From: Ianthella basta
Lineage: Eukaryota; Porifera; Demospongiae; Verongiida; Ianthellidae
Assembly: GCA_964019415.1 (NCBI GenBank)
Contig: OZ025883.1
Coordinates: forward strand, 2,394,086 to 2,458,085
DNA: 64,000 bases
Reading direction: 5' to 3'
Positions 12,280-60,455 of this stretch are shown in pieces. Within the stretch, counting starts at the first letter, position 1; each line of letters begins with the position of its first letter. Under the pieces are notes generated by a model that had not been told where the DNA came from, did not search any database, and saw only the letters and a list, made by a program, of their open reading frames with translations. Both the position numbers and the translations under genes were made by a program.

Positions 12280-12287
12280 TGACGTCA
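12280..12287. promoter_or_regulatory. CRE-type palindrome TGACGTCA, gene A
   Basis: A perfect TGACGTCA lies upstream of the first leader exon of gene A. The same palindrome occurs at the matching place in B, D and E. The motif is the binding site of CREB/ATF and related bZIP factors. Confidence 0.6.
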
Positions 12288-12329
12288 TTTACAAGCGTGG
12301 GAGGCGGGTAAATTGTCGTGTTCGTCTTT

Positions 12330-13054
12330 CGTGCTAGTTTAATAGTACTGGAGTCCGACTGGAGTAAGAATCTTAGTAGTGTTTGTTTGAGTCGTTGTCT
12401 ACCGGCCGGGCAGCCCTGAGCCTGCCAGGCGGCTTAGTGGAGGAACGGGGGGTAAGTCCTTTTGCAAATGGTTTGTGTGGAGTGGCTTGTTTGCTGTTTA
12501 GCTATAGGAAGAGTTCAATTGTGCAAATCTAGCTACAGTTCACTAGCTAGCTAATGGAGGTCAAGTAGTTAGCTAAGTCCCGTAATTTCTAGTGGCTTCA
12601 ACTGCTTATTTAGCTACAAAATTTTCCCTATCTTTCACGAAGGTCACCCTCTCTCCACCGCCTCTTAATAGTGTCCGGCCACTGACTGCCCAGTCTTAAC
12701 AGCTGACAGCTGCAGCAGCCTCGCTCGAAGTTTGCACTGCCGGCGCTGTTCACCGCTTCCACCGTATCAGCAGCGCCGTCCAGCCGAACACCTCAACACT
12801 CCTCCCTCCTTAACGCCTCGCCTCTCCGCGACCACCAAACCCAATTCATACCTCTACGGCTCAGTCTCGCGCCAGTAGCCCTCCGCATCCAACTGACTCC
12901 TCGACGCATTCGCTCCTCCAACACTTGCCGTTTCTCCAACACCCCGTCCATTAGCACCGTCTGGTTTCTACCCGTTCACCGTCCTGCTCAACGCCTCTAC
13001 ACTCCTCCCTCCCTCCTTACTGCCTCGCCTCCACCACCGTGAAGAGAATTGGAG
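12330..13054 (+). other. 5' leader of gene A
   Basis: The first leader exon ends at 12451 before GTAAGT; its start is not defined. The second begins at 12643 after TTTCACGAAG and runs directly into the coding exon without the intron that B, C and E have at this place. It is pyrimidine-rich with repeated words (CTCCTCCCTCC, GCCTCGCCTC) and contains no ATG before the coding start. The first exon matches that of gene E (54.7-54.8 kb) better than those of B, C and D, which form a second type. Confidence 0.6.
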
Positions 13055-15395
13055 ATGGCTCAATTTCTGAGAGAAGTGGAGATGGCTTTTTCTCAGAGAG
13101 AATTGGATCAGATGGCTCTTATTCATCCTTGTTATAAGGGTGACTTGTTCACAGTAAGGCGGCTAATTAAAGAGGGCCATAATGTGAACACCAGAGATGA
13201 GGATGGCAACACACCTTTAATACAGGCAGCTTGGAGAGGTCATGACCAAGTGGTGGAGGAGCTCATTAGAGAAGGTGCTCATGTGAATATTAAGGACAAT
13301 GGTCGACGAAATGCCCTTTACTGGGCCAGTTTGCTTGATCACAGTAGTATTGTGCAAACACTGTGTGCAGCTGGTGCAGATACCAATGTACAAGATCATT
13401 ATGGATGGACCCCTTTGATATGTGCAGCTTGGAGGGGTAGGGATGAGATAGTGTGCGAGCTGATTAGAGCAGGTGCTAGTGTGAATGTTGTCACTAGCCG
13501 TATACGTACATGGAAGGGGGAGTTACCTACTGGCTCAACAGCCCTGCATTATGCTGCTGAGTATGATAGAATTAAATGCTGGATTCTCCTCGTGGAGGCT
13601 GGAGCAGATATGACAATCAGGAACAAGGAATGCAAAACTCCTCTGGACCTTGCATTTGGTGACTTCCAACAAACTGTTCAACAGGCACAGTCTTCCTCTA
13701 CCAAGCGCATTGTAGCAGTAATTGGCAATGCTGAGCATGGCAAGAGTACACTGATAGCAGCTTTGCAGGCCGAGGGCAAAAGCATCTTCAAGAAGGTCGT
13801 CAACTGGTTTGCACAAGTGCAGGACATCAGCCAACGCACAGCTGGAATTGAAGCAGTTGAATTCTCCAGTCATAAGTATGGACAGACATTGTTCTATGAC
13901 TTTGCTGGTCAGGCTGATTACCATGGCCCTCATCAGTCCTTCTTGGAGGCCATGCTGAGCAAGCCAGGAGCGTCTGTGACCCTTTTACTTCTGGTGAAGG
14001 TAACTGATGAGGATGACGTAATCATACAACATATCACTCGTTGGCTACAACCTCTTGCTCTTACGTCAGCCCCATCCACTCCACAAGTGATCCTTGTTGG
14101 CAGTTTCCTTGACCGAGTAAAGTCCAAAGAGGAAGCAGCCGGGAAGCTGTTACGATGTAGTCAGTCAGTGCAGGAGGAGTTACCTTTCGACATCCAAGGT
14201 CCCTGTCTCCTGGACTGCCGCAAGCCTGAATCTGAGGGTATCAATCAGATTTGCGCCTTCTTTCAGGAGATTCAGCCTCTTCAGTTCAACTCTGATATTC
14301 TCTCATACAATCTCCGGTGGGTCCTAATACTATTGCAGGAAGCATTCTCTGTTCCGGCCATCACACTCCACACCTTCCAGTCATGGCTATTGAAAAATGC
14401 TGGGCTGCTCTCCATGAACTTCCCTGCAGCGGTGGAGGTGTGTTGTGACCTAACAGCAATTGGTCACGCCCTCTTTCTCCCCAACCGGCTGGACCCCTTC
14501 CAAAGTTGGCTTGTCTTGGACCTCCAAGCTGTTCTCCACAATGTGTATGGCACCTTGTTCAGTGGGTCCCGGGGCAAGGTCAACCAGTTTGGTCTCCTCC
14601 ACTGCAGTCAGCTGGTTGAGCTGTTTCCTGAATTGAATCCAACAATGATCCAAGAAGTCCTTATCAGCCTTGATTTCTGCATCCAGGTTGATTCAAAGTT
14701 GCTACGAGGCGATCTTGTGAAGCTAACTGCCGGTACTGAAGGAGAAGGATGGCTGTACTTCCCTGCTCTGGTGTCAGCCCAACCTCCTGAGCTCTTCCCA
14801 AAGGATACCAACCCACACCGCCTCCAGTGGGTGTGCTGGCAACTGAGGACAGAGGAGAAGCACCTCATCTCTGCACATCTCCTCCAATCCATTATCCTCC
14901 ATCTTGCATCCAATCATGTGTTCGCCCACGAGTTAGCCAGTGTCAGAGAACATTGCTGCAGCGTTTGGATGAATGGCCTTTCCTGGAGGTCCACCAAAGG
15001 CGTTGACATAGCTGTCCACGTAAGTGACTGCAGTGTGGTCCAGGTTGTAGGACACAGCAAGGCAGCACCAGAGAAACTTCTCCGATACATGTCAACCATT
15101 GTCCGAGATGTTATCAAGATGACCACCCAGCTGTCACCAAAGCTGAAGGCCACATCCTACATCGTCCACCCATATACACCTGCTATGTTGGAGGACACCA
15201 AAGCCCCTCCCCTTGACTCCTTGTATCCTGTTTCAAGTATTGTACATTGCATCAGTAATGGAGACGACCACGTTCTATCCCGCCAACAAGTTGGCCATCT
15301 TCCCAACCAGATGAGTCTCACTGAGTTGTTTGGAGGCTGGTGTCCTTCTCTGTCAGTTGTACAAGACATGGGCTTTCAGAAGGAGCCACAGAGGG
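13055..15395 (+). CDS. Gene A large exon: ankyrin repeats, Roc GTPase, COR
   Basis: Uninterrupted exon of 780 codons plus one base. Ankyrin repeats occupy about residues 24-200 (for example DGNTPLIQAAWRGHDQVVEE, GWTPLICAAWRGRDEIVCEL). A Roc GTPase follows: P-loop GNAEHGKST at 224-232, switch region QRTAGIE, DFAGQADYH at 282-290 (G3), and VGSFLD at 348-353 where G4 would be. A COR domain (about 405-700) includes AIGHALFLPN, WLVLDLQAVLHNVYGTLFSG, ELFPELNPTMIQEVLISLDF and GWLYFPALVSAQPP. ROCO proteins are nucleotide-dependent switches, dimerising through COR; ankyrin repeats would sense a ligand or partner. The start is taken at ATG 13055; in-frame ATGs at 13082 and 13112 are alternatives, and the sister genes start near the equivalent of 13112. 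The exon ends in phase 1 before GTGAGT. Confidence 0.88.
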
Positions 15396-15558
15396 GTGAG
15401 TGTGTGTTTCCTCTCCCTGTTTGATGAAAGCCATTCCTTCAGTGTACCACCTTATTGTACTCTCATATACATGTAATGGCCACCCATTCAACTAGTATGA
15501 TGTGGTGTTAACTAGCCTAAAAGTTGGACACTTGCTTCCTCCTCCTTTGTACCTGCAG

Positions 15559-17603
15559 CTCCACTCTCTTCAGACCTGCCCTCATTATTCAGCTCCCAAA
15601 ATAGAGCTACCACTGCTGACAAGGGACTCTCCCCAGAGATGGAGGCACTGACTACAGCACAGCAAGGTATGCTCCATGCAGTGTGACTACACACGAGTGC
15701 ACCTCACAGTGTACCGAGTGTGGGAGGTGTGTCCCTACTGTCTCTGATGGAGTCTCATTCAATCCACTAACCCCAAGTGTCATGTGGTGACCCCTTAGTG
15801 CACAGAGGAGGTTTAGTGTGTGGCTGTATGCAGTGACATTCAGATTTTGTGCTAATGTTAATTGGAGAATGGGGAATCCCCTTCTGCCGCCCTAATATGT
15901 TATCAGATTTGTGTATCATGTGTCTTCCCTTTCCATGAAGCTGTACAAGTCCTCAATCACTTTCGGGGCCAGTTCATTGAGGAAATGGATGCTAATGCTA
16001 TCGTCCTGGAACTTCTACACAACAATATCATTGATAGAGGGGATGAGAGGAGGATCGCAATGACCCTTGACCCAACACAGCAGAATCAGTTTCTTCATTT
16101 GATATTGAAGGAGAAGTGCACTGAGGATGCCTTTGAGACCGTCTGTGACATCATCATTGCAGTAAAGGGCAACCCAAAGATGAAAGCGTTGGGTGAATCT
16201 ATGAAGAGGAGACTGGAGACCGGTGGGTACATGTGTGTGTGTGTGGGGGGGGGGGGGGGGGCAACACTGTGTGTGGTTGCATGTGGTTGTACCTGTGTAT
16301 GGGAGCGTTGTATGCAGTGTGCATGGATTAATTGTGTGTTGCTGAAGAATTTAGCCAATCACTGCTCTGTTCTGCTTTTATTGCCTTGCAGCTCTACTCT
16401 CTTCAGACCTGCCCTCAGTATCATTGTCATCCAGCTCCAAAAGTGAAGCGACCACTGTTGACAACGGACCCTCCCCAGAGATGGAGGCACTGACAACAAC
16501 ACAGCAAGGTATGTTCCATGCAGTGTCACTACACTTGCCGCGGACTGCACCTAACAGTGTACCGAGTGTGGGAGGTGTGTCCCTACTGTCTCCGATGGAG
16601 TCTCATGCAATCCACTAACCCCAAGTGTCATGTGGTGACCCCTTAGTGCACAGAAGAAGCTTAGTGTGTGACTCAGTTACCCTCTGATAATCGGATTTTG
16701 TGCTAATGCTAATTGGGGAATGGGGAATTCCCCTCTTCAACTCCCTAGCATGTTATCAGGTTTATGTACCATGTGTCTTCCCTTTCCATGAAGCTGTACA
16801 AGTTCTCAATGACTTTCGGGACCAGTTCATTGAGGAAATGGATGCTAACGCTGTCGTCCTGGAACTCTTTCATGGAGGCTTTAACAGTGAGGGTGATAAG
16901 AACAAGCTGACACAGTTTGATGAACCAAGGCAATGTAACCAGTTCCTCCACTGGACTTTGGTACAAAAGTGTACTAAGGAGTCCTTCGAGGCTGTCTGCA
17001 GCATCATCACTGCAGTAAAGGGCAACCCAAAGATGACAGTGTTGGGCAAATCAATGAAGAGTAGACTGGAGAAAGGTGGGTAAGGTGTGTGTATGTGAGG
17101 GTGAGTGTTGCAGGAGGTGTGTGTGACTGCATGGACAGTATGTACATGTATGGGTGAGTAGGTGGGAGTCTGTGTATAGTGTGCATTTGTGTGTATGTGT
17201 ACATGTGTAAGTGAATGATTGATGGATGCCCCACTTCACTGTTGCTATTTGATCATGACCCACTCTTCATGTGCAGTTCCACTCGCTTCAGACCAGCCCC
17301 TAATACTGCCATCCTCCAGCTCCCAATGTGGAGCTATCACTGCTGACAAGGGACTCTCCCCAGAGATGGTGGCACTGACTACAACACAGCAAGGTATGCA
17401 CCATGCAGTGTGACTACACACTAGTCCACCTCACAGTGTACTGAGTGAGGGAGGCGTGTCCCTACTGTCTCTGTGAGATCCCACTAACCATAGCATACAA
17501 GAGAGTGGTTCATAACACCTACTCTGGTCTCATCCCACCTACAGATGGACATGCCCTCTTGAACGTGGACTCCGTCCCCACCTCACAAGCCAGGAAGCCG
17601 TGA
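15559..17603 (+). CDS. Gene A 3' exons: linker, CARD-I, linker, CARD-II, linker, short tail
   Basis: Six exons, all phase 1: linker 15559-15666, CARD 15941-16222, linker 16392-16508, CARD 16794-17075, linker 17277-17393, last exon 17545-17603. Joined to 13055-15395 they stay open and give 1,101 residues. The linkers are Ser/Thr/Pro-rich (SSDLPS...ATTADKG.SPEMEALTT). The CARD exons are each 94 codons. The first is type I (LLHNNIIDRGDERRI, QQNQFLHLILKEKCTEDAFE), the second type II (LFHGGFNSEGDKNKL, CNQFLHWTLVQKCTKESFEA). The last exon reads DGHALLNVDSVPTSQARKP: the Death domain found here in D and E is deleted in frame, and the stop aligns with theirs. CARD domains recruit caspases or adaptors by homotypic binding, so A is probably a sensor coupled to CARD signalling. 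Confidence 0.78.
16244..16260. repeat. Poly-G run in a gene A intron
   Basis: A run of about 16 G bases follows a GTGTGTG stretch just after the CARD-I donor. Its length in the assembly should be treated with caution. Confidence 0.8.
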
Positions 17604-17886
17604 ACTTTGACCCTAGTACATGATAACTCACAGTACATTGCATATACATACATGCATATGGCAGTAGTATAGATTGCGTATATAGTGTTCCTTGTATCAT
17701 AGATAGTAAAGACCACCTTTTTTACCATCTATGCTTGTATTGACGTGCACGTGGCACGTGATCAGTTGATTAGTGAGATATTGCGCAACTCAGAACTTTG
17801 CGGATGGCGGACAGCTCGATCGAGCAAACTATAGTAAGAAGAAGAGCAATGTTAATTATTGTTGAAGCTTCAGAGTCAACGTCGTT

Positions 17887-18400
17887 ATGGAGAGGAGCCG
17901 GATCCTGAGATGTAAGCAATGAGTAAGTAAGGGCACTTGCCGGCCATATGCATTTCGATAGTCGCGCACCTTTTAACAGCTTGCTTGCCCGCCCTTCATC
18001 TGCATGGTCTTCGTCAGCCAAGGATGACCTGGCCGAGCTACAGCGCCGGTTCCGTATATATTACAGAGGAGCTAGGGTCGAAAGAGCTACACAGGCAAAG
18101 CACAAAACAGCCTAAGGAAGCAAACGCACGCAGTACTTGACTTGGCATTGTGGCTAACATTGGAACCTTAATGTGTAGCTAGTGTGATGCTGACACTGTG
18201 CATGTGGGCCATGACTGAGATGTTGGAAGCAGAGAAGCAAGATCTCAAGTAGAACCTCAGCCTGGCAGGGAGTCGTCAGAATGAGTTGAAGGATCGCAGA
18301 GTAGTCTGAGGAACTGATTGAGCGTCGGCTGGACTATGAGCAACTGATTGCCAAGGAGCAGCATGCCATCAGTGAACTGGAGAGGAGGATCAGAGAGAAA
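17887..18400 (+). pseudogene. Broken ODAD1/CCDC114-like 5' fragment, copy 2
   Basis: The same layout as 7853-8400, placed just after gene A: a short first exon before GTAAGTAAG, then KDDLAELQRRFRI after a CGTCAG acceptor, then MLEAEKQDLK, NLSLAGSRQNELKDRR and AKEQHAISELERRIREK in different frames. Changes unique to this copy include a 4-base TATA duplication and several stops. It is more decayed than copy 1, and both were duplicated with the gene unit. Confidence 0.45.
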
Positions 18401-19365: not shown

Positions 19366-19368
19366 GAT

Positions 19369-21899: not shown

Positions 21900-23307
21900 G
21901 CAGTCAGACAGAAAGGTCGTTTAGTTGGGCGTGGATCGCTCGAGTTTCGTAACCTGCCGGGAGCCCTGGCTGCCTACCCACATGCTATAGCCAGCCAGCT
22001 GCAGGCGTCCCTTACAGCGGAGGAACAAGTGAGTCTTTTAGATCTGTTGGATTAACTTTAAGTTTAAAGTGTTCAAATTCTATAGCTGCTTCAACCATAT
22101 GCATCTCCCGCGTGGTATCTATAGTTGAGTATCTGTGCTTGAACTGCTCATTGTAGAGAGGGGACCAACTTCACGAGCCTTTTCCCACCCTTTATACAGG
22201 TCAACGCTTCCGCTTACCACGTAACGTCAGCCATCTGCTGGTCTCCCTATTTGCTCACCCAGCTAGCTGCGCTCCTCCAGCGGCGGAACACATTTCGTTT
22301 TCCGAGTCCACTAGCACTGCTTGGTTCTATCTTCGTTCCACCGTCACACGAAAGAAGCATTGTCTGAACTGCTCAAGCCTCCAGTACTCCTTGCCTAGCG
22401 CCTCAGCCCAAGCTGCCCAACCCCTCTACACTCTTCATAAGGTTTCACCTCCTTCTACCCCTAACTGCCAAAAGCTATCTACTCGCTTACCATTTTAGCT
22501 AACAGCCTCGCTCGTTATCTGTGCTGACCAGTCCACCATCATCAGGGCACCGCCTCTCCACTCTCCCTCCCTACTGCTTCAACTCAGCACCTCTACACAC
22601 CTCCCTCGGAATCCATAGCACCTTGCCTACTCCACGAGTGGTCATCAACACATTCAACTCACATCTCTAAGCTCCTCCAACACTTGCTGTTTCTCTAACA
22701 ACCCGTCCATTAGCACCATCTGGATTCTACCCATTCACCGTTCTGCTCGACACCTCAACACACCTCCCTCCTCACCGCCTTGCCTCCTCCACCGACTATC
22801 AACAGCTGCAACTCTCTGCTCCTTCCTCACACAACGGCCGACAGTAGCAGCCAACACCTCTGCACTTCTCCCTCCCTAGCGCCTCAGCCCAACACCTCTC
22901 CAACTGGTGAGTGCTCTTATACTGTATTGCAGTAGTGCATCCAAGACACGTGGTGCTGTAGGTGGGTGAACCTGTGCCCTAGCTGGAGCTTTGAATGGTA
23001 GCCAGTACCCTGCATGTGAAGGGGCTGTATTCAAGGTGGATCTGGCAAGGGCTACTATTGGCCTCAGGCCCCTCCTTCCTTAGCCTATTGGTATAGATGG
23101 AGCAAGTTAAGATGGCTTGTAGCACATGTTGAGTCATTTCGAGTCATTAGCAGTAAATTGTAGCCAGTTCTAGTAATGAACCATATTATTTAGTATAGTC
23201 AGGCATTTTGAGAGTCATTTTGTCTCTCTGTGTGTGAAGTTGTTCATCTAACAAGTGGTCCATTGTGTCTTTTGTAGGTCACACCTTCACTTGCACTTAG
23301 CAGAAAG
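21900..23307 (+). other. 5' leader of gene B, three exons
   Basis: Leader exon 1 ends at 22028 (GGAACAA, then GTGAGT). Exon 2 is 22200-22906, from a TTTATACAG acceptor to CCAACTG before GTGAGT. Exon 3 begins at 23278 after TTTTGTAG and carries the ATG at 23308. Exon 2 is 707 bases of C/T-rich sequence with no ATG on reading through it. The intron 22907-23277 is strongly conserved in C and E. Confidence 0.6.
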
Positions 23308-25591
23308 ATGGCTCTTTGGGATGCTTGTAGTGATGGTGACTTGGAGGAAGTGAGGCAGCTAATTCTAAAGGGTCATAATGTGAACACCAGAGGTGGGTAT
23401 GGTGCAACACCTTTAATACAGGCAGCTGGGTGGGGTCGTGACCAAGTGGTGGAGGAACTCATCAAAGAAGGTGCTCATGTGAATGTAAAGGACAATAGTC
23501 AGCTAACTGCCCTTTACTGGGCCAGCTGGTTTGATCATTGGAGTGTTGTGAAAAGACTGTGTGCAGCTTGTGCAGACACCAATGTACCAGATCGAAGGGG
23601 AGTGACCCCTTTAATGTGTGCAGCTAGGTGGGGTAGTGATGAAATGGTGTGTGAACTGATTAGAGCAGGTGCTAGTGTGAATGTTGTCACTAGCCATGAG
23701 TGGTGGTATGGGGGTCTAGCTGCCGGCTCAACAGCCCTGCATTTTGCTGCTGGCTACAACAATATTAAATGTGGGGTTCTCCTTGTGGAGGCAGGAGCGG
23801 ATATGACAGCAAGGAACAACGACTCCAAATCTCCCCTGGATCTGGCATCAGGAAACTTTCGGCAAACTATTCGACAGGCACAGTCTTTCTCTACCAAGCG
23901 CATTGTAGCAGTAATTGGCAATGCTGAACATGGCAAGAGTACACTGATAGCAGCTCTGCAAGCCGAGGGCAAAAGCATCTTCAAGAGGTTCACCAACAGG
24001 TTCACACAAGTGGACGACATCAGACAACGCACTGCTGGAATTGAAGCAGTCCAGTTTTCCAGTCGTAAATATGGACAGACCTTGTTCTATGACTTTGCCG
24101 GTCAGGCTGATTACCACGGCCTTCATCAGTCCTTCTTGGAGGCCATGCTGAGCAAGCCGGGAGTGTCTGTCACCCTGTTACTTCTGGTAAAGGCAACCGA
24201 CGAGGAAGATATCATCACACAGCAAATCACTCGTTGGCTGCAACCTCTAGCTCTTACATCAGCCCCATCCACTCCACAAGTGATCCTTGTTGGCAGTTTC
24301 TTGGACCAAGTAAAGTCCAAAGTGGAAGCAGCTGAGAAGCTGTTACGATGCATTCAGTATGTGCAGGAGGAGTTGCCTTTCAGCATCCAAGGTCCCTGTC
24401 TCCTGGACAGCCGCAAGCCTGAATCTGAGGGTATCAATCAGATTTCCACCTTATTTCAAGAGAACCAGCCACTCCAGTTGAACTCGGACATCTTCCCTTA
24501 CAGTCTTCACTGAATCATGAAGCAAATGCAAATTACCCTCTGTGCTCCAGCCATCACACTCCACGCCTTCCATTCGTGGCTGCTGGACGAAGCCAAGCTG
24601 GTTCTCAGAAACTTTCCCCCACCTGAGAGCTTATGTCGTGACCTAACGGCAGTTGGTCACGCCCTGTTTCTCCCCAACAAACAGGATCCCTCTCAAAGTT
24701 GGCTCATTGTGGACCTCCAAGCTGTTCTCCATAACGTGTATGGCACCCTGTTTAGTGGGTCCCAGGGCAAGGTCAACCAGTTTGGTCTCCTCCACTGCAG
24801 TCAGCTGACCAAGCTGTTTCCCAAAATGGATCCAACAATGATCCAAGAGGTCCTTATCAGCCTTGAGTTCTGCATCCAGGTTGATGCAAGGATACTGCGA
24901 GATGACCTTATGAAGTTAACTGCCAGTACTGAGGGCGAAGGATGGCTGTACTTCCCTGCTCTGGTGTCAGCCCAACCTCCTGAGCTCTTCCCAAAAGATG
25001 CCAACCCACACCAACTCCAGTGGGTGTGCTGGCAACTGAGGACAGAGGAGAAGCACCTCATCTCAGCAAATCTCCTCCAATGCATCATCCTCCGTCTTGC
25101 AGCAAATCACGTTTTTACCCACAAGTTACCCAGTGCGAGACAGCACTGCTGCAGTGTTTGGATGAATGGTATTTCCTGGATGTCCATTACAGGGGTGGAC
25201 ATTGCAGTCCAGATAAGTAATGGCAGTGTGATCCAGGTTGTTGGATACACTGAAATGGAGCCTGAGAAACTTCACCGATATGTGTCAACCATTGTCCAAG
25301 ATGTCATCAAAGCAACTACCCAGCTGTCACCGAAGCTAAAGGCCACATCCTACATCATCCACCCATACACATCCAGTATGTGGGAGGACGACAAAGCCCC
25401 TCCCGCTGACTCGCTTTATCCTGTTTTGAGTATTGTTAACAGTATCAATGATGGAGGTGACCATGTTTTATCTCTGCTAAAAGAGACTGGTTGTCTTCCC
25501 CGCCGGACGAGTGTCACTGAGCTGTTTGGAGGCTGGTCTCCTTCTCTGTCAGTTGTACAAGACATGGACTTTAAGAAGGAGCCACAGAGTG
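23308..25591 (+). CDS. Gene B large exon: Ank-Roc-COR with an in-frame stop
   Basis: ATG 23308 opens MALWDACSDGDLEEVRQLIL, ankyrin repeats to about residue 190, then Roc with P-loop GNAEHGKST at 204-212 and DFAGQADYH. At 24511 a TGA replaces the tryptophan codon found in the paralogs (C and D read NLNWVL; A reads NLRWVL), ending the first frame at 401 residues between Roc and COR. The same frame stays open for another 359 codons and carries a well-kept COR domain to the phase-1 donor at 25592. Either the gene has just lost function, or it makes a truncated Ank-Roc protein, or the base is an error. About 30 nt around the stop (HIMKQMQITLC) has diverged from A more than the rest. Confidence 0.8.
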
Positions 25592-25767: not shown

Positions 25768-27215
25768 ACCTGCCCTCAGTACCGTCATCCTTCAGCTCAC
25801 AAAGTGAAGCTACCACTGCTGACAAGGGACCCTCCCCTGACATGGAAGCACTGAGAACACATCAAGGTATGCTCCATGCTGTGTCACTACACACAAGTGC
25901 ACCTAACAGTGTGCGGAGTGTGTGAGGTGTGTCCCTAGCTACTGTCTCTGATGGAGTCTCATGCAATCCACAAACCCCTAGTGTCATGTAGTGATCCGTT
26001 AGTGCGCAGAGGAGGTTTAGTGTGTGGCTCAGCTGGTGACATTCAGATTTTGTGCTAATGCTAATTGGAGAATGGGGAATCCCCACTTTAACTGCACATA
26101 CATGTTATCAGGTCCGTGTACCATGTGTCTTCCCTTTACATGAAGCTGTACAAGTACTCAATCTTTTTCGGGACCAGTTCATTGAGGAAATGAATGTTGA
26201 TGCTGTCGCTTGGGAACTTCTTCACAGAGGCTTTATCAGTGCGGGCGATAAGAACAAGCTGACACAGTTTGATGAGCCAAGGCAATGCAATCAGTTCCTC
26301 CACTGGACTTTGGTGCAAAAGTGTACTGGAGAGGCCTTTGAGACTGTCTGCGATATTATCACTGCAGTTAAGGGCAACCCAAAGATGAAAGCACTGGGCA
26401 AATCTATGAAGAGGAAACTGGAGACAGGTGGGCATATGTGTGTGTGAGGGAAGAACTGCAGCTCCATGGATGAGTGTTGCAGCAGTTTTGTGTGGCTGGG
26501 TATTACATGTATTGGTGATTAGGTTGGAGTCTGTGTATAGCGCATTTGTGTGTATGTGTACATGTGTAAGTGAATGATCGAGGGATGCCCTGCTTTATTG
26601 TTGCTATTTAACCCACTCTTTGTATACAGCTCCACTCTTTTCAGACCAGCCCTCAGTACCGTCATCCTCCAGCTCCCAAGGTGGTGCTACCACTGCTGAC
26701 AAGGGACCTTCCCCAGAGATGGACGTACTGACTACAACACAGCAAGGTATGCTCTATGCAGTGTCACTACACACAAGTTCGCCTCAGAGTGTACCGAGTG
26801 TGGGAGGTGTGTCCCTACTGTCTCTGATGGAGTCTTCTGCAATCCACTAATATAACCCCAAGTGTCATGTGGTAACCCCTTAGTGTACTGTCAGAGGAGG
26901 TTTAGTGTATGGCTCAGTTAGTTGGTGACATTCAGATTTTGTGGTAATACTAATTGGCGAATGGAAAATTCCCCCATCAGCTGGTTCACTCTGTCAGGTT
27001 TGTGTGCAGGGACTTTCCCAGAAGTTGCAACAGAAAAATGTAACCCTTATGTCATGTGACAGTCACATGGACCAATTGATATGCACAGTGGCTAAGCATA
27101 GTTTGACAAGTAACTCTATCTACGCTTGGTGATTGGTCCATGTCCCACAGCTTCAATGCAGTGACACTACATGCACACAAGTGAACAGTGTTCCGAGTGT
27201 GGGAGGGACCATTTG

Positions 27216-27287
<72 letters not shown>

Positions 27288-27997
27288 TTTATAATTTGTA
27301 TCACGGGCTGCTGTGGATGTCCCTTTCGTGTCCTTGCTCTACCCTACAGGAGCAGCCTCCTCAAGTGTTCAGGAACGCAGAATTGTGCTCTGTCAGCCAG
27401 TGCACTTTGTGGGTAAGTCTGTCCATCCTCAGCATGGGTCTCTGAGGGCATGGGGCTACCTACTGTGAGGGCACCTCATGCATATGGGGTGGGAGTGGGT
27501 TGGGTTGGTAGAGACAGGACATGTGTATGTAGGGTATTACACTCTATTGCTATAATTGCCAATTTTTGTCAAAACCAATCCCCCCTCCCCTTCTCCCTTA
27601 GGTCACAGGCAGTGTATCATGCTGTTCAGAAAATTTGTGAGCCGTAATGCAGCAGGCAAGGGGTGGGCAGTGCTGGAGGGGGTGGGGCTATCCACTGAGG
27701 CCATTGATGAGTGTTACGCCAACTTACCCCATGATGAGCAAGAGGCTGTGCAGTCTGGCTTGAATAGGTGGAAGGACGGTGAAGGGGTCACCCCAGCCAT
27801 CTGGAAGGTGCTATTTGAAGCAATGGACTACGCTGGCATTGCTGTACAGCACATCACATCACTGGAGGAGGAACTCCTCAAAGGTACAGTCCTCAATCAG
27901 CTGGTCAACTGAGCATATCTTGTCTGCTGTTGACTGAATGTTGAGCACTTCCTCCTCCTTTGTTCCTGCAGCTCAATTCTCTTCAGACCTGCCCTGA
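25768..27997 (+). CDS. Gene B 3' exons: linker, CARD-II, linker, short exon, Death-1, stop
   Basis: Phase-1 exons: linker 25768-25866, CARD 26146-26427, linker 26630-26746, a 63-nt exon 27350-27412 (GAASSSVQERRIVLCQPVHF), Death domain 27602-27883, last 27972-27997. The first linker has lost its usual acceptor (GGAC instead of GCAG), but an inner TCTTCAG 15 nt downstream keeps the frame. The CARD is type II (HRGFISAGDKNKLTQFDEP). The Death exon reads FVSRNAAGKGWAVLEGVGLS, NRWKDGEGVTPAIWKVLFEA and YAGIAVQHI. The last exon is the start of a linker, ending AQFSSDLP and TGA. With the upstream stop ignored, the frame is continuous. Confidence 0.72.
27219..27287. repeat. (GT)n microsatellite in a gene B intron
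   Basis: About 68 bases of GT repeat before the 63-nt exon. Gene C has only a few units at the same place. Confidence 0.95.
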
Positions 27998-43283: not shown

Positions 43284-45529
43284 ATGTCTCTTTTTGATGT
43301 TTGTAGAGCGGGTGACTTGTTCAAAGTGAGGCGGCTAATTAAAGATGGGTCTAATGTGAACACCAGAAGTGAGTATGGCACAACACCTTTAATAGCGGCA
43401 TCTATTAGGGGTCATGACCAGGTGGTGGAGGAACTCATCAGAGAAGGTGCTCGTGTGAATGTAAAGAACAATTCTCAGCGAACTGCCCTTCACTGTGCCA
43501 GCTGGAGGGGTCATTGCAGTGTTGTGAACACACTGCTTGCAGCTGGTGCAGACACCAATGTACAAGACCAATGTGGAGTGACCCCTTTGATGAGGGCAGC
43601 TGAGTGGGGTAGTGATGAAATAGTGTGTGAACTGATTAGAGCTGGTGCTAGTGTGAATGTTGTCACTAGCAGTGAGTTGTATGGGGTAGCTGCTGGCTCA
43701 ACAGCCCTGCATTTTGCTGCTGAATACAATTGGATTAAATGTGGAGTTCTCCTCGTGGAGGCTGGAGCAGATATGACAGTCAGGTACAAGGACTTCAGAT
43801 CTCCCCTGGACCTTGCATCAGGTTACTTCCAACGAACTATTCGACAGGCACAGTCTTTCTCTACCAAGCGCATTGTAGCAGTAATTGGCAATGCTGAACA
43901 CGGCAAGAGTACACTGATAGCAGCTCTGCAAGCCGAGGGCAAAAACATCTTCAAGAGGTTCACAAACAGGTTCGCACAAGTGCAGGACATCAGGCAACGC
44001 ACAGCCGGTATTGAAGCAGTCCAGTTCTACAGTCGTAAGTATGGACAAACATTGTTCTACGACTTTGCTGGTCAGGCTGATTACCATGGCCCACATCAGT
44101 CCTTCCTGGAGGCCATGCTGAGCAAGCCAGGAGTGTCTGTGACCCTGTTACTTCTAGTAAAGACAACCGACGAGGAAGACATCATCACACAGCAAATCAC
44201 TCGTTGGCTGCAACCTCTAGCTCTTACGTCAGCCCCGTCCACTCCACAAGTGATCCTTGTTGGCAGTTTCCTTGACAGAGTAAAGTCCAGAAAGGAAGCA
44301 GCCGAGAAGCTTTCACGATGCACTCAGTCAGTGCAGGAGGAGTTACCTTTCGACGTCCAAGGTCCCTGTCTCCTGGACTGCCGCAAGCCTGAATCTGAGG
44401 GTATCAATCAAATTTGCATCTTCTTCGAAAAGATTCACCCGCTACAGTTAAACCCCAGCACTCTCTCATACAACCTTAATTGGGTCCTAGCACAATTAAG
44501 GAAAGCATTCTGTGTTCACGCCATCACATTCCAGGCCTTCCAAACATGGGTAGAGGAAAATGAGGAGACACTCCTTTAGGATTTACCCTCACCTGAGGAG
44601 GTGTGTCGTGACCTAACAGCAGTTGGTCACGCTCTTTTTCTCCCCAACAAACAGGACCCCTCCAAAAGTTGTTCTCCACAGCGTGTATGGCACCCTGTTC
44701 AGTGGGGCCCAAGGAAAGATCAACCAGTTTGGTCTCCACTGCAGTCAGCTGGCAGAGCTGTTTCCCAAGTTGGATCCGGTAATGATTCAAGAGGTCCTTA
44801 TCAGCCTCGAGTTCTGCATTGAGGTGAATGCAAGAATGCTAGAAGATGATCTTGTGAAGTTAACTGCTGGTACTGATGGAGAGAGATGTCTGTACTTTCC
44901 TGCTCTGGTGTCAGCCAAGCCTTGCGAGCTCTTCCGAAAGGATTCAGGGCCACAGAACTTCCAGTGGGTATGCTGGCAATTGAGGACAGAGGAGAAGCAC
45001 TTCATCTTTGCCCATCTCCTCCAATCCATCATCCTCCGTCTTGCAGCCAATCATGTGTTCACTCACACGTTACCCAGTGTGAAAGAGCGCTGCAGTGTTT
45101 GGGTGAATGGACTTTCCTGGAGGTCCACCAAAGGTTTAGACATTGCGGTCCAGACAAGCGACAGCAGTGTGATCCAGATTGTCGGATGCAGCAAAGCAGG
45201 ATCAGAGAAACTGCACCGATACTTATCAAGCATTGTCCAAGATGTCATCAAAACAATTACCCACCTGTCACCAAAGCTGAGAGCCACAGCCTACATCGTC
45301 CACCCGTACACACCGTCTATGTTAGAGAACACTAAAGCCCCTCCCATTGACTCCTTGTATCCTGTTTTGGGTATTGTCCATTGCATCAGTGATGGAGATG
45401 ACCACGTTCTATCTAGACAACATGTTGGCCATCTTCCCAACCGGATGAGTCTCACTGAGTTGTTTGGAGGCTGGTCTCCTTGTCTATCAGTTGTACAAGA
45501 CATGGACTTTAAGAGGGAGCCACAGAGTG
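43284..45529 (+). pseudogene. Gene D large exon: Ank-Roc-COR, disrupted
   Basis: ATG 43284 opens MSLFDVCRAGDLFKVRRLIK, five ankyrin units, Roc with GNAEHGKST at 202-210 and DFAGQADYH, and the start of COR. At 44577 TAG replaces the TGG of LLWHLP, ending the product at 431 residues. Further on, 23 bases (compared with C) are missing near 44671, changing frame within the WLILDLQAV segment of COR. The remainder (to 45529) is well preserved in the new frame (LHSVYGTLFSGAQGKINQFG, ELFPKLDPVMIQEVLISLEF). Two independent lesions make this the clearest pseudogene of the five, although an Ank-Roc product could still be made. Confidence 0.8.
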
Positions 45530-45690: not shown

Positions 45691-46742
45691 CTCCACTCTC
45701 TTCAGCCCTGCCCTCCAACTTCCAAAGTGAAGCTACCGCTGCTGACAAGGGACCCTCCCCAGAGATGGCTACACCGACTACAACACAGCAAGGTATGCTC
45801 CATGCTGTGTCACTACACACAAGTGCACCTCACGGTGTACCTAGTGTGGGAGGTGTGTCCCTACTGTCTTTGATGGAGTCTCATGCAATCCACTAACCCC
45901 AAGTGTCATGTGGTGACCCCTTAGTGCACAGCGGAGGTTTAGTGTGTGGCTCAGTTAGCCGGTGACATTCAGATTTTGTGCAATTGCTAATTGGGAGATG
46001 GGGAATCCCCCTTCAGCTACCCTAACATGTTATCAGATTTGTGTACCATGTGTCTTTCCTTTCCATGAAGCTGTACAAGTACTTGATGACTTTCGGGACC
46101 AGTTCATTGAGGAAGTGGATGCTAATGCTGTCGTTCTGGAACTTCTACACAACAAGATCATTGATAGAGGCGATGAGAGGAGGATCACAATGACCCTGGA
46201 CCCAACACAGCAGAATCAGTTTCTTCATTTGATATTGAAGGAGAAGTGCACTGAGGGTGCTTTTGAGACCGTCTGTGACATTATCACTGCAGTTAAGGGC
46301 AATCCAAAGATGAAAGCATTGGGCGAATCTATGAAGAGGAGACTGGAGACAGGTGAGTATATGTATGGAGAAGGAGACTGTGTGCGTGGGTGCATGTGGT
46401 TGTGTCTGTGTATGGGAGTGTTGTGTGCAGTGTGCATGGATGTGTGTGTTGCTGAACACTTAATTTTAGCCAATCACTGCTGCATTTTGCCATTTTTGCA
46501 TTGCAGCTCCACTTTCTTCAGACCTGCCCTCAGTACCGTCATCCTCCAGCTTCCGAAGTGGAGCTACCACTGCTGTGGAGATGAGGAAGGTCTTGTCCAA
46601 GGAGAGTCATCCTCTGCCTCCAGTGGCCAGGTAAGGTCAGTGAACCTCTCACACTCATGTACTAGCACAACTTGGGATACGGACTGAGAAAGGGTGTAAT
46701 TTACCTTGTTTGATGGAGTGTGTGGGTAGGCGTGTGTGCAGG

Positions 46743-47449: not shown

Positions 47450-47841
47450 TGTGTGTGTTGAGAGATGAAAACAGCACACAAGTTTGTGGTTTATAAAACC
47501 TACTCTGGTCCACGCCCCCCTCAGATGGACACACTCACTTCACTATTGACTCTACCCCCACCTTACAAGCCATTATGAAGTTCATTGTCTGTGAAGTTGC
47601 AGCAGACTGGAGCCAAGTAGCCATCTATCTTGGTGTGGAGGTGTCTGTAATAAACACTACAGAAGAGAACCACAGAAGCTGTGCACTTGCTTGTGCGGCC
47701 ATCTTCGAGCAGTGGTTGTCGTGGGAACCTGGCACAGGGGAGAAGGACAGAACTTGGCGCACTGTGTTGTCAGCTATTGAGAATGCCGGACACAAGGCCT
47801 TTTCATGGCAACTGAAGACAGAGATCTATCATCTCCGGTGA
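45691..47841 (+). CDS. Gene D 3' exons: linker, CARD-I, altered linker, linker, Death-2
   Basis: Exons: linker 45691-45792, CARD 46071-46352 (type I, LLHNKIIDRGDERRITMTLD), altered linker from 46507, linker 46967-47083, last exon 47525-47841. The altered linker diverges after SGATTA into VEMRKVLSKESHPLPPVA and reaches GTAAGG at 46632 in phase 2 rather than phase 1, so it would have to be skipped to keep the frame. The last exon codes for Death-2: FIVCEVAADWSQVAIYLGVE, IFEQWLSWEPGTGEKDRTWR, TVLSAIENAGHKAF, ending IYHLR and TGA. Because of the upstream lesions these exons are probably not reached by the main frame. Confidence 0.65.
47378..47458. repeat. (GT)n microsatellite in a gene D intron
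   Basis: About 80 bases of GT with one CGCG interruption. A smaller one lies at 46745-46796. Confidence 0.95.
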
Positions 47842-54679: not shown

Positions 54680-55880
54680 TTGAGTCTTTCAGTTGTTCTA
54701 GTCTCGTTTCCAGGGTCAGTGCTAGATACAGTTATATACAGTCGAGTTTGTTAGAGTCGTTCTCTACCGGCCGGGCTGCCCTAGGCCTGCTTGGCAGCTT
54801 AGTGGAGGGACGAGCGGTAAGTCTTTTTGCTAGTGGCTTGTGTGGAGTGGCTTGTTTGCCGTTTAGGAAGCGTTCAAGTGTGCAAATCTAGCTACAGTTC
54901 ACTAGCTAGCTAATGGTTGTCAAGTAGTTAGCTAGGTCCCGTAATTTCTATCTGCTTCGACTGCTCATTTAGCTACCAACGTTTCTCCATCTTTCATGCA
55001 GGTCACCCTCTCTCCACCGCCTCTTAATAGCCACTACCCAGTCTTCTTCGATCTTCGCTCGAAGTTCGCGGTGTTCGTTCCACCGTCATCAGCATCCCCT
55101 CCAGCTGAACACCTCTAGCTACTCTTCTCCCTCCTTAACGCCTCGCCTCCTCCGTGACCAACACATCCAACTTACACCTCTACGGCTCAGTCTCACGTGA
55201 GTAGCCCTCCCCGACGTGTTCGCTTCTCTAACACTTCGCGTTTCTCCAACACTCCGTCCATTAAGCACCGTCTGGTTTCTACCCGTTCACCGTCCAATTC
55301 AACACCTCTACACACCACCCTCCTTGCTGCCTTGCTTCACCGCCGACTACCAACAGCTGCAACTTCTCGCTCATTCCTCACGCAACGGCCGACAGTAGCA
55401 GCCAACACCTCTGCACTCCTCCCTCCCTCCCTAGCGCCTCAGCCCAATAGCTCCAACTGGTGAGTGCTCTTATACTGTATTACAGTAGTGCATCCAACAC
55501 ATGTGGTGCTGTAGGTGGGTGCGTGAACCTGTGCCCTAGCTGGAGCTTTGAATGGTAGCTAGTACCCTACATGTGAAGGGGCTGTACTCAAGGTGGATCT
55601 AGCAGGGGCTACTATTGGCCTCAGGCCCCTCCTTCCTTCTATCCTATTGGTATAGGTGGAGCAGTTAAGATGGGAATTGGAGCACAGTTGAGTCATTTAG
55701 AGTCATTAGCAGTAAATTGTAGCCAGTTCTAGTAAATGAAATGAACCATATTGTTTAGTAGTCAGGCATTTTGGGAGGCATTTTGTCTCTCTGTGTATGA
55801 AGTTTTTCATCCAACAAGCAGTCCATTGTCTCTTCTGTAGGTCACACCTTCACTTGTACTTCTATTAGAAAGAATTGGAG
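54680..55880 (+). other. 5' leader of gene E, three exons
   Basis: Exon 1 ends at 54816 before GTAAGT, like gene A. Exon 2 is 55002-55459 and has no ATG. Exon 3 begins at 55841 after CTGTAG. So E has an A-type first exon combined with the intron that B and C have, which A lacks. Confidence 0.6.
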
Positions 55881-58175
55881 ATGGATTTTTGTGATGCTTT
55901 TGAAGAGGGTGACTTATTTAGAGTGAGGCGGTTAATTAAAGAGGGCCATAATGTGAACACCAGAGGTGAGTATGGCAGAACACCTTTAATAAAGGCAGCT
56001 ATTAAGGGTCATGACCAAGTGGTGGAGGAGCTCATCAGAGAAGGTGCTCGTGTGAATGTAAAGGACTATTCTTCACTAACTGCCCTTTACTATGCCAGCT
56101 GGTGTGGTCATTGTGGTGTTGTGATAACACTGTGTGCAGCTGGTGCAGACTGCAATGTACAAGATGAATTGGGACTGATCCCTTTGATGTGGGCAGCTAG
56201 GAAGGGTAGTGACAAAATAGTGTGTGAACTGATTAGAGCAGGTGCTAGTGTGAATGTTGTCACTAGCAGTGAGTGGAGGTATGGGGGGCTAGCTGCTGGC
56301 CCAACAGCCCTGCATTTTGCTGCTAAATACAATAGCATTAAATGCGGGGTTCTCCTTGTGGAGGCAGAAGCGAATATGACAACAAGGAACGAGGACTCCA
56401 AATCTCCCCTGGACCTTGCATCAGGTGACTTCCAACAAACTATTCGACAGGCACAGTCTTTCTCTACCAAGCGCATTGTAGCAGTGATTGGCAATGCTGA
56501 ACATGGCAAGAGTACGCTGATAGCAGCTCTGCAAGCCGAGGGCAAAAGCATTTTTGAACAGCTCATCAACAGGTTTGCACAAGTGCAGGACATCAGCCAA
56601 CGCACAGCTGGAATTGAAGCAGTTGAATCTCCAGTTGTAAGTATGGGCAGACATTGTTCTATCACTTTGCCGGTCAGGCTGATTACCACGGCCCTCATCA
56701 GTCCTTCCTGGAGGCCATGCTGAGCAAGCCAGGAGCGTCTGTGACCCTATTACTTCTGGTAAAGTCAACCGACGAGGAAGACATCATCACACAGCAAATC
56801 ACTCATTGGCTGCAACCTCTAGCTCTTACATCAGCCCCATCCACTCCACAAGTGATCCTTGTTGGCAGTTTCCTTGACCAAGTAAAATCCAAAGAGGAAA
56901 CAGCCGAGAAGCTGCTACGATGCACTCAGCCAGTGCAGAAAGAGTTGCCTTTCAACATCCAGGGTCCCTGTCTCCTGGACTGCCGAAAACCTGAATCCGA
57001 GGGTATCAATCAGATTTGCATCTTCTTTGAAAAGATACACCCACTACAGTTAAACCTTGGCACTCTCTCATACAACCTTAACTGGGTCCTAGCGCAACTG
57101 AAGAAAGCATTCTTTGTTCCAGCCATCACATTCCAGACATTCCAGTCATGGGTACAGAAAAATGCTGATACGCTCCTTTGGCATTTACCCCCATCCGAGG
57201 AGGTGTGTCGTGACCTAACAGCAATTGGTCACGCCCTCTTTCTCCCCAACAAGCAGGATCCCTCCCAAAGTTGGCTCATCTTGGACCTCCAAGCTGTTCT
57301 TCACAATGTGTATGGCACCCTGTTCAGTGGGTCCCAGGGTAAGGTCAACCAGTTTGGTCTCCTCCACTGCAGACAGCTGGCTGAGCTGTTTCCCAAGTTG
57401 GATCCGACAATGATCCAAGATGTCCTTATAAACCTCGATTTCTGCATCCAGGTTGATGCGAGGATACTACGAGAAGACCTTGTGAAGCTAACTGCAGGTG
57501 CTGAGGGAGATGGCTGTACTTCGGGCGGATGGCTTTACTTTCCTGCACTGGTGTCAGCCCAACCTCGTCGGCTCTTCCCAAAGGATGCAGACCCACACCA
57601 CCTCCAGTGGGTGTGCTGGCAACTGAGGACAGAGGAGAAGCACCTCATCTCAGCACATCTCCTCCAATCCATCATCCTCCGTCTCGCGGCCAATCATGTG
57701 TTTGCCCACGAGTTGGACAATGTGAAAGAGCACTGCTGCAGTGTTTGGACGAATGGCCTTTCCTGGATGTCTACTAAGGGTGTGGATGTAGCAGTCCAAA
57801 TAAGTGACAGCAGTGTGGTCCAGGTTGTTGGACGCACCAAGGCAGGACCAGGCAAACTTCAACGATACGTGTCTACCATTGTCCAAGATGTCATCAAGGC
57901 AACTACCCAGCTGTCACCAAAGCTGAAGGCTACTTCCTACATTGTCCACCTGTACACACCTGCTATGTGGAAGAACACCAAAACCCCTCCCTCTGACTCC
58001 TTGTATCCTGTTTTGAGTATTGTACGTTGTATCAGTGCTGGAGACGTCCATGTTCTGTCTCGACAACAAGATGGCTGTATGGCCCACAGACTGAGTCTCA
58101 CTGAGTTGTTTGAAGGCTGGTCTCTTTCTCTGCCAGTTGTAAAAGACATGAACTTTAAGAGGGAGCCACAGAGTG
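55881..58175 (+). CDS. Gene E large exon: Ank-Roc-COR with a one-base deletion
   Basis: ATG 55881 opens MDFCDAFEEGDLFRVRRLIK, ankyrin repeats, and Roc with GNAEHGKST at 204-212. Near 56627 the paralogs read GAATTCTCCAG or similar while E reads GAATCTCCAG: one base is missing just before the DFAGQ motif and the frame ends at 280 residues. The next frame continues from FAGQADYHGPHQSF through an intact COR to the phase-1 donor at 58176, with a small unique insertion (DGCTSG, about 57512-57529). One base separates this from a fully open gene, so an assembly error is a real possibility. Confidence 0.8.
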
Positions 58176-58247: not shown

Positions 58248-58731
58248 TCTTATTATAATAAGTATAACTCATAATTTCGTTGTTCGGGATATACTTCTTC
58301 AGTTCTGGGCGGAACGTCATGAAACGCAGTAGGATTACGAAGAGGCGTAGTGTGAGTAACCTCGCCGAGTCAAAATTTGGTTTAACGTCGTTCCGAGTTC
58401 TTGCCACTTTTACGGTTGCCACCATATCTAAGAGATAGGGAAGAGATTGTGTTTCGTTGTTCAGAAACTCCAATTTTTCACGAATCTTCACCAAACTTAG
58501 AAGAGCACATCATGGCAATACGGGGGTGGGGGGTGACCTAAGGTGGTTAGTGCCTTCACCACTGGACGTTTTTAGATGAAATGGATTAACATAAGGCAAT
58601 TCTGTGCTCATGAAGTTTTTCGGAGTGAGTCTACGGAATGCTTGCAATTAAACGGACAGTTTTGATTGGTTACACACTCAAATTACGAACTGTAGACTGG
58701 GAACCCACCCGAAGGGTGGGCATTCAGCTAA
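58248..58731. mobile_element. Short non-autonomous Helitron
   Basis: The insert begins TC (58248) and ends CTAA (58731), lying between A and T. A hairpin, CCCACCC-GAA-GGGTGGG at 58704-58720, stands 11 bases before the 3' end. These are the diagnostic Helitron features. The same intron in gene D reads CATCATATACATGTAATGG without the insert. The 484-bp element also has a perfect palindrome, CTTATTATAATAAG, right at its 5' end. No Rep/helicase sequence is present. Confidence 0.85.
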
Positions 58732-58846
58732 TACATGTAATGGCCACCCACCCATTCAACTAGTATAATGTGGTGTTGTGTTGTGTTGTAATGTGTTGAC
58801 TAGCCTAAAGGTTGGACACTTGCTTCCTTCTCCTTTGTACCTGCAG

Positions 58847-60455
58847 CTCCACTCTCTTCAGGCCTGTCCTCAGTGCCATCATCCTGCAGCTCCCAAAGTG
58901 GAGCTACCACTGCTGACAAAGGACCCTCCCCAGAGATGGAGGCACTGACTACAGCACAGCAAGGTATGTTCCATGCAGTGTCACTACGCATGAGTGCACT
59001 TCACAATGTACCGAGTGTGGCAGGTGTATGTCTACTGTCTCTGATGGAGTCTCATGAAATCCAATCCACTAACCCCAAGTGTCATGTGGTGACCCCTTAG
59101 TTCACAGAGAAGGTTTAGAGTGTGGCTCAGTTAGCTGGGGACATTCAGATTTTATGGTAATGGTAATTGGGGAATGGGGACTCCCCCTTCAACTGCCCTA
59201 ACATGTTATCACATTTGTGTACCATGTGTCTTCCCTTCCATGAAGCTGTACAAGTACTCAATCTCTTTCGGGACCAGTTCATTGAGGAAATGGATGCTAA
59301 TGCTGTCGTCCTGGAACTTCTACACAACAATATCATTGATAGAGGTGACCAGAGGACAATCACAGCAAACACTAACCCAACACAGCAGAATCAGTTTCTT
59401 CATTTGATATTGAAGGAGAAGTGCACTGAGGATGCCTTTGAGACTTTCTGTGATATCATCACTGCAGTAAAGGGCAACCCTAAAATGAAAGCGTTGGGTG
59501 AATCTATGAAGAGGAGACTGGAGACGGGTGGGTATATGCGTGTGTGGGGAGGAGACTGTGTGCATGGGTGCATGTGGTTGTGTCTGTGTATGGGAGTGTT
59601 GCGTGCAGTGTGCATGGATGTGCGTGTTGCTGAATATTTTAGCCAATCACTGCTCTGTTCTACTTTTTGCTTTGCAGCTACACTCTCTTCAGACCTGCCC
59701 TCAGTACCATCATCCTCCAGCTCCCAAAGTGGAGCCACCACTGCTGACAAGGGACCCTCCCCAGAGATGGAGGCACTAACTACAACACAACAAGGTATGC
59801 TCCATGCAGTGTCACTACACACGAGTGCGCCTCACAGTGTACCAAGTATAATAGGTGTGTCAGTGCATGTGTGTGCGGACATGAGCTCTTCATGTTGTAG
59901 TGGAACCTGGCTATTCTGGACACCTTTGGGACAGGCCGATATGTCCTGATTAGAGAGGTGGTGTTGCATTTTGTCTGTGTGTCACTGAAATGGCACAGTT
60001 GGTAGTGTCCTCATTATACAGGTTCTGATTTCTGGTGTCCCTTATTTTTTAAGAGGTGTATATGTGAATGTGTACTTGAAGGGGTTAGAACATTACACTA
60101 GTGAGTGGTTTCTAACACCTACTCTGGTCCCACCCCCTTCTCAGATGGACACATGCACTTCACTATTGACTCCACCCCCACCTTACAAGTCATTAGGACG
60201 TTCATTGTCCGTGAAGTTGCTGAGCACTGGATCCTGATAGCCGTCTACCTTGGCTTTGAATCCTCTGCTATCATGATGATGAAGACTGACCAAAGTAAGC
60301 GTGCTTGCACAGCAATGTTTGAGCGGTGGTTGTCATGGGAACCAGGGACAGGGGAGAAGGATCGGACTTGGCAAACTGTGTTGTCGGCAGTAGAGTATGC
60401 TGGACATGAGGCCTTCTCACTGCAATGCAGGTCAGAGCTGTTCAGTCTCCAGTGA
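58847..60455 (+). CDS. Gene E 3' exons: linker, CARD-I, linker, Death-2
   Basis: Phase-1 exons: linker 58847-58963, CARD 59246-59527, linker 59678-59794, last exon 60145-60455. The CARD is type I (LLHNNIIDRGDQRTITANTN, QQNQFLHLILKEKCTEDAFE). The last exon encodes DGHMHFTIDSTPTLQ and then Death-2 (FIVREVAEHWILIAVYLGFE, MFERWLSWEPGTGEKDRTWQ, TVLSAVEYAGHEAF), ending LFSLQ and TGA. Death domains bind other Death domains in adaptor complexes, so E would combine CARD and Death signalling. All joins are in phase. Confidence 0.75.

Follow-up and report, generated by a model that had tools for sequence, protein, structure and literature searches.

An ankyrin and Roc-like GTPase gene family with varied CARD and Death exon sets in the sponge Ianthella basta

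What do genes do that join ankyrin repeats to a GTPase and are followed by different sets of death-fold exons, as they are in tandem copies in the sponge Ianthella basta? Exploring a stretch of 64,000 nucleotides (C16:2394086-2458085; hereafter the window) of this genome of 209 Mb in 96 contigs, we found five long ankyrin-GTPase exons in tandem, spaced 8.4-12.6 kb apart and all on the (+) strand, which we call the large or core exons of genes A to E. A sequence-only reading of this DNA had described a cluster of ankyrin-Roc-COR sensors with interchangeable CARD and Death modules, diversified in the style of NLRs. Our analysis partly confirmed that observation and partly supported its interpretation. 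Most of the family lies outside the window, and we favor, at a probability of roughly 0.6, the reading that its many genes encode intracellular receptors for immunity or for telling self from non-self, in which a variable ankyrin sensor is combined with a GTPase switch and an exchangeable CARD/Death output. The strongest new result, absent from the earlier description, is the fast evolution of the ankyrin contact sites.

Fast-evolving positions of the ankyrin domain

Selection was analyzed in 28 cores with open frames, those of A and C and of 26 of 30 further loci, excluding L017, which repeats C, and L040-L042, which carry stops. Pairwise ratios of nonsynonymous to synonymous substitution rates (dN/dS) were 0.97 in the ankyrin domain, with 177 of 373 pairs above 1, while the GTPase was under purifying selection (0.31) and the rest of the core gave 0.35-0.37. 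Ankyrin residues accounted for 30 of the 50 most variable ones, and many of them recurred every 33 residues. Positions 2, 3, 5, 13 and 14 of the repeat, which we take to be the contact sites of engineered ankyrins in DARPin numbering, showed a pooled dN/dS of 2.21 (site bootstrap 1.25-3.87) compared with 0.74 for the rest of the domain. The values were 2.00 versus 0.68 in 17 non-redundant cores and 2.27 versus 0.74 in eight sequences outside the 28-core set, some of which come from interrupted genes and one of which is a near-copy of A. Mean entropy was 1.65 at the contact positions and 0.51 elsewhere in the ankyrin domain (Mann-Whitney p 7e-10); as a control of register, the mask was moved by up to 16 residues in either direction, and every such shift gave 1.10 or less, the peak of 1.65 lying at shift 0. 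A loop at residues 135-142 was also fast (dN/dS 1.71). DARPins are described as binding via randomised positions on their concave face (PMC8229355).

Core domains, death-fold exons and splice phase

Ankyrin repeats were found in all five large exons of the window (Pfam, E 1e-28 or better), as had been claimed. A P-loop GTPase was recognized in A-D; for gene E, which was scanned as two pieces, the GTPase match was weak and confined to its start (Pfam E 0.006-0.03). Cut-offs here are Pfam's own curated thresholds. Among the window genes Roc exceeded the cut-off in B alone (28.5 vs 27 bits); across the 28 cores it matched at E<=0.01 in 27, with MMR_HSR1 and GTP_EFTU scoring similarly. A PDB profile search with the core GTPase returned EF-Tu only (best E 0.49) and is uninformative for Roc; the core motif DFAGQ..Y...H..F resembles Roc.

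COR was detected by no test. Pfam gave no COR match in the window cores, in core sets A2 (23) and A1 (28) or in a paralogue on contig C4, a PDB profile search of the core gave none at E<=10, and hhalign against the genome's own COR proteins reached a probability of 0.11. With hmmsearch --max the 28 real sequences scored -0.7 bits or less and 1,148 shuffled or reversed decoys scored up to 8.4, and an AlphaFold2 model of the core had a mean predicted local distance difference test score (pLDDT) of 52, mostly under 50 past residue 389. The region following the GTPase looks COR-like by eye; since no test detected COR, we do not claim it, and for the same reason the core cannot be called ROCO. Of the proposed Roc-COR core, the tests support a P-loop GTPase that is Roc-like, above the Roc cut-off in B alone, and not COR. 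Elsewhere, on contig C20 (L001-L006, 3.93-4.32 Mb), several proteins are positive for Pfam COR-A and their frames continue, by eye, into kinase-like sequence; these copies are perhaps another ROCO-like expansion in this genome.

Scanned with Pfam in its three + frames, the 10 kb around gene A (11,000-20,990) yielded solely ankyrin and GTPase-type matches and no protein kinase at E<=0.5; exon-by-exon scans then gave weak death-fold matches. NACHT genes are numerous elsewhere in the genome (102 matches scored of 469 candidates), and none of the 102 lay inside the seven Ank-GTPase cluster intervals. With COR undetected, no kinase around gene A and a core without NACHT, we did not file the family as ROCO, DAPK or NLR.

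The CARD exons were examined by profile and by a structure model. A profile of 14 CARD copies matched the NLRP1 CARD in PDB (best E 6.8e-4), and Pfam recognized CARD in five of the 14 copies, at best with E 2.8e-3, below cut-off; CARD-II of gene A had no Pfam match of its own. The AlphaFold2 model of the gene E CARD (pLDDT 94.9) comprised seven helical segments, corresponding to a split first helix and five more. Nearly all of the best 50 of its 138 Foldseek matches were CARD entries (TMq 0.55-0.79; 0.74-0.78 for the CARDs of Apaf-1, caspase-1 and RIG-I), and those listed included two designed proteins and no E below 0.001. The exon is thereby predicted to adopt the six-helix CARD fold with a split first helix. 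CARD-I and CARD-II of gene A (window 15934-17080) have common ends and middles that differ by eye, as if recombined within the exon.

A profile of seven Death-1 copies matched the death domain of CRADD in PDB (E 5e-3), FADD being next at 0.48. Death-2 matched Pfam Death with E 8.8e-4 in D (19.8 vs 22.6 bits needed) and 1.1e-3 in E, both below cut-off, and its PDB search did not single out a death domain (CRADD E 1.4); Death-1 and Death-2 aligned with each other in hhalign at 89% (E 2.3e-6). On these weak but consistent profile matches both are putative death domains. The death folds claimed earlier were recovered for CARD, Death-1 and Death-2, some of them below cut-off; the refuting outcome named with that claim, profile searches without any death fold, did not occur. 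All three exon types are under purifying selection, the pooled dN/dS being 0.29 for CARD (23 copies), 0.39 for Death-1 (14) and 0.35 for Death-2 (4).

Splice sites were located by a script using fixed motifs at 44 core pieces and at 30 CARD, 17 Death-1 and 16 Death-2 matches, where some loci overlap and matches without a motif are uncounted. Every located site was in phase 1: 41 core donors, 27 CARD acceptors, 24 CARD donors, 12 Death-1 acceptors, 14 internal Death-1 donors and 14 Death-2 acceptors. The window CARD exons, being 282 nt long, are therefore symmetric, and with a single phase throughout, cores and effectors could join freely. The core exon is preceded by a good acceptor in the 22 copies listed, nearly all ending in AG, and this acceptor lies twelve bases upstream of a methionine that is invariant in the 28 cores; a further exon 5' of the core exon is likely. 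The C4 paralogue, whose core is 67% identical, has the same exon order as the window genes; the acceptors of its CARD and Death-2 exons and the donor of its CARD exon were recognized on visual inspection, and the scripted core-donor pattern was unmatched there. We infer from the exon arrangement and phase that core, CARD and Death exons would be joined in one mRNA.

Copy number, effector exchange and layout of the window

A protein search scored 58 loci of 1,283 candidates, and with A', B', D and E added from the local map the family numbers at least 62 large exons genome-wide, which is a lower bound. Of the 58 scored loci, 44 gave an uninterrupted single match (two of them partial), seven carried stops and seven were split. 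CARD or Death exons lie 9 kb or less downstream in 59 of the 62 loci, on agreeing strands as judged by eye, and a Death-1 (D1) or Death-2 (D2) exon follows the ankyrin-GTPase core, hence C-terminally, in 57. The effector strings were CARD-D2 in 31 loci, D1 in 14, D1-D2 in seven, CARD-D1 in four, CARD-CARD in two and D1-CARD-D2 in one, with none in three; this census draws on 52, 46 and 29 matches, on or near the cluster contigs, of the best 150 scored in each death-fold search. Five paralogous copies, effectors under purifying selection, a uniform splice phase and the same arrangement in 59 of 62 loci suggest that the cluster is more than chance. Together with the cluster intervals free of scored NACHT matches, the copy number supports the proposed NLR-style diversification with a GTPase in the place of NACHT.

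The scored death-fold matches are scattered over many contigs, which shows that these domain families also occur in other genes; one Death-1 match on C10 lies 3.3 kb from a NACHT match on the same strand, and C2:1.1-2.1 Mb holds clusters of Death-2, Death-1 and CARD in an order unlike that of the Ank-GTPase genes. On C4 a long-sensor subfamily is represented by L048 1-4785 (C4:650001-654785), a giant ankyrin array with at least 29 Pfam Ank stretches in an open frame of 2,557 aa that is fused to the same GTPase core and followed by CARD and Death-2 exons.

To relate effectors to cores, we used a maximum likelihood tree of 33 of the 62 cores that excluded the ankyrin part and left out L031, for which no effector was found. 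The effector string required at least 13 changes on this tree, compared with a mean of 15.3 in 300 label shuffles, and a two-state coding (CARD-first, Death-1-first) required 10 changes compared with 10.5, with 146 of 300 shuffles at or below. Among six cores that are 96.0-98.2% identical in DNA, four strings occur (D1, D1-D2, CARD-D1 and CARD-D2). Effector sets thus barely track core phylogeny, in agreement, as is the uniform phase, with the claim that effector exons have been swapped.

The sequence behind the core differs less between genes than the core itself: 3.8% in the 120 nt after the core exon and 8.0% in a spacer repeat, compared with 12.5% in the neighbouring 1,500 nt of core, as measured in the 23 of 31 genes that have the spacer within 400 nt. 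The simplest reading of this low divergence is recombination or gene conversion in the intron; the alternative is functional constraint on the intron. The spacer repeat follows many core exons at a distance of about 145 nt and recurs ahead of effector exons, and among 79 local matches 44 carry an acceptor pattern and 40 a donor pattern, 39 of the latter in phase 1. Two other roles for the spacer were rejected. A coding linker is not supported, as 32 copies gave a dN/dS of 1.02 and showed no excess at third positions, and all 42 matches lay within Ank-GTPase cluster intervals (40 of 199 candidates scored), unlike a genome-wide transposon.

Within the window the effector sets were exactly those described before, each exon present in its place: CARD-I and CARD-II in A, CARD-II and Death-1 in B, Death-1 in C, and CARD-I and Death-2 in D and E (Table 1). 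The count of five genes needs qualification, as only A and C have intact frames, B carrying a nonsense codon and D and E frameshifts. As for gene A being a receptor that lacks Death, there is a Death-2-like start downstream of it, near 17,500, but not the domain itself. The ZU5 attributed to a decayed neighbour is present as a match that is weak and below cut-off; a 98.9% identical copy lies 39.7 kb upstream. The stretch with the ZU5 piece, A and B is duplicated about 40 kb upstream at 97-99% protein identity (ZU5, A, CARD, Death-1), the match to the duplicate's B core starting only at residue 216, and the cluster continues past the window with more copies on either side.

Table 1. Positions of the features in the window (C16:2394086-2458085)
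Feature	Position	Strand	Remarks
Gene A, large exon	13043..15395	+	ankyrin repeats, Roc-like GTPase and ~375 aa; open frame, from which the start was taken; donor phase 1 after 15395
Gene A, CARD-I exon	15941..16222	+	282 nt, phase 1-1
Gene A, CARD-II exon	16794..17075	+	282 nt, phase 1-1; CARD by paralogy with CARD-I
Gene B, large exon	23293..25591	+	start approximate; one in-frame TGA at 24511-24513
Gene B, CARD-II exon	26146..26427	+	
Gene B, Death-1 exon	27602..27912	+	to its stop; possible internal phase 1 donor after 27883
Gene C, large exon	31735..34027	+	open; acceptor ctattag immediately 5' of 31735
Gene C, Death-1 exon	35083..35393	+	possible internal donor after 35364
Gene D, large exon	43272..45529	+	start approximate; frameshift between 44326 and 45088, there 29 nt short of the sister-copy register
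Gene D, CARD-I exon	46071..46352	+	
Gene D, Death-2 exon	47525..47841	+	with stop
Gene E, large exon	55869..58175	+	frameshift near 56,630
Gene E, CARD-I exon	59246..59527	+	best single CARD match (Pfam E 2.8e-3, below cut-off); modelled with AlphaFold2
Gene E, Death-2 exon	60145..60455	+	with stop
Sixth gene, 3' part of Death-2 exon	1..155	+	its large exon upstream of the window, C16:2389140
ZU5-like fragment, decayed neighbour	5997..6281	+	Pfam E 0.017, below cut-off
Spacer repeat, first copy of gene A	15558..15767	+	
Other spacer copies (starts)	16391, 17279, 25755, 26617, 34190, 45690, 46506, 46954, 58846, 59671		46506 is short
Spacer copies near the decayed neighbour (starts)	4932, 7056		

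Apart from the cluster, an open frame at window 2866-3795 matches GNAT acetyltransferase twice in Pfam (E 2.4e-11 and 3.1e-10), and an inverted pair at 61017-61239 and 61932-62158 aligns over 227 bases at 95% identity. The mitochondrial COX1 follows code 4, with TGA for Trp, AGA for Arg and ATA for Ile at sites that we take to be conserved in other animals; alongside COX1 sequences of other animals, this suggests a sponge or another non-bilaterian.

Receptor reading, its rivals and known systems

In the receptor reading, the ankyrin domain would bind a ligand through the hypervariable surface formed by positions 2, 3, 5, 13 and 14 on a more conserved framework, and the bound ligand would switch the Roc-like GTPase. 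The C-terminal CARD and/or Death domains could then seed death-fold assemblies that recruit caspase or NF-kB-type partners. The predicted gene plan of one large core exon, then symmetric phase-1 CARD exons, then a Death exon would allow intron recombination between symmetric exons to give a sensor a new output. More tentatively, and with somewhat less than even confidence, we propose a germline-encoded repertoire of dozens of paralogous, DARPin-like binders in an early animal, in which paratope-equivalent positions are positively selected, GTPase-wired effector exons are exchanged across a homogenised intron and spacer, and recognition and output evolve independently.

Several points weigh against the receptor reading. 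It rests on DNA sequence, and no test detected COR, which usually accompanies Roc. The contact positions were chosen after the list of variable residues had been seen, and the dN/dS values come from pairwise counts, which are non-independent and can be inflated by recombination between paralogues. The DARPin analogy is imperfect: positions 26 and 33, which we believe also belong to the DARPin set, are invariable here (mean entropy 0.38 each), and positions 10 and 16 are variable (1.43 and 1.15). A slight dependence of the full effector labels on the core tree does exist, with 19 of 300 shuffles reaching 13 changes or fewer, and gene conversion of the cores alone could also produce the weak link between core and effectors. 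In addition, interruptions affect 14 of the 58 scored loci and three of the five genes in the window, and the association of cores with effectors in 59 of 62 loci is a raw count.

The same domains might instead belong to DAPK-like regulators of cell death whose ankyrin repeats bind self partners, expansion and divergence reflecting many such partners rather than immunity. In DAPK1 a kinase is followed by Ank, Roc-COR and Death, as described in PMC6320773, and the Death exons are C-terminal here too; we nevertheless regard this as unlikely, given that no kinase was found in the frames scanned around gene A, that COR was undetected, and that at least 62 clustered copies with a binding-surface dN/dS above 1 fit an arms race better than housekeeping. 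Allorecognition, where ankyrin variants and effector sets would mark individuals and a mismatch on tissue contact would trigger cell death, seems to us less probable still. A diversifying surface and the clustering of genes that carry cell-death domains would suit it, and fungal ankyrin-repeat NLRs under positive selection have been discussed for non-self recognition (PMC4986451), but Pfam showed the large exons to have no extracellular domain, in a search that did not extend to transmembrane segments. The fused receptor itself would disappear if large exons and death-fold exons were separate genes lying side by side. The intervening spacer repeats, with no coding constraint, leave room for this, yet it is highly improbable in view of the uniform phase-1 donors and acceptors, the symmetric 282-nt CARD exons, the effectors downstream on agreeing strands in 59 of 62 loci and an exon order kept in a paralogue of 67% identity.

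If the receptor reading is true, the family is a receptor class of an early animal that does the work of NLRs with another switch, another sensor and effectors at the opposite end, and in which sensor and output recombine freely. As the sensor has an ankyrin framework, its binding surface and ligands would be accessible to existing DARPin methods; surveys that count NACHT or LRR genes alone could then miss much of an animal's intracellular receptor set.

Among the open-licence PMC matches listed, no paper describes the family in its title or the start of its abstract, and its closest relatives each differ from it in part. Bacterial effector-associated-domain systems, in which a Ras-like AP-GTPase replaces the STAND NTPase (PMC8195603), keep their effectors in separate genes. 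In the demosponge Dysidea avara, large CARD, DEATH and NACHT sets of 39, 128 and 230 genes are reported (PMC12909245); sponge NLRs have a NACHT-LRR core and N-terminal effectors, in contrast to the GTPase core and C-terminal effectors found here. The fungal ankyrin NLRs share positively selected ankyrin positions, which PMC4986451 places on the concave face, in the inner helices and in the beta-hairpin; they use a NOD-type switch (NACHT or NB-ARC) and the comparison is of repeats and alleles of a locus, whereas ours is a Roc-like GTPase in paralogous genes. Brown-algal LRR-ROCO proteins are likewise candidate immune receptors built on a GTPase core, and their exons are shuffled and under diversifying selection, but it is their sensor LRR exons that are described as shuffled (PMC11378527), while here the effector exons shuffle and the ankyrin sensor lies within one exon. 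Trichoplax, another early animal, is reported to have at least 17 ROCO genes with Roc-type GTPases joined to CARD or Death; the parts of PMC11378527 drawn on here name LRR and TPR, not ankyrin, and mention no tandem effector swapping. DAPK1, a ROCO protein, comes nearest in architecture, with ankyrin repeats, a Roc-type GTPase and a C-terminal Death domain in the same order (PMC6320773), and is set apart by the CARD exons and at least 62 clustered copies of the sponge family, in which COR was undetected and no kinase was found around gene A. The family is built most like DAPK1 minus the kinase and would work most like an NLR.

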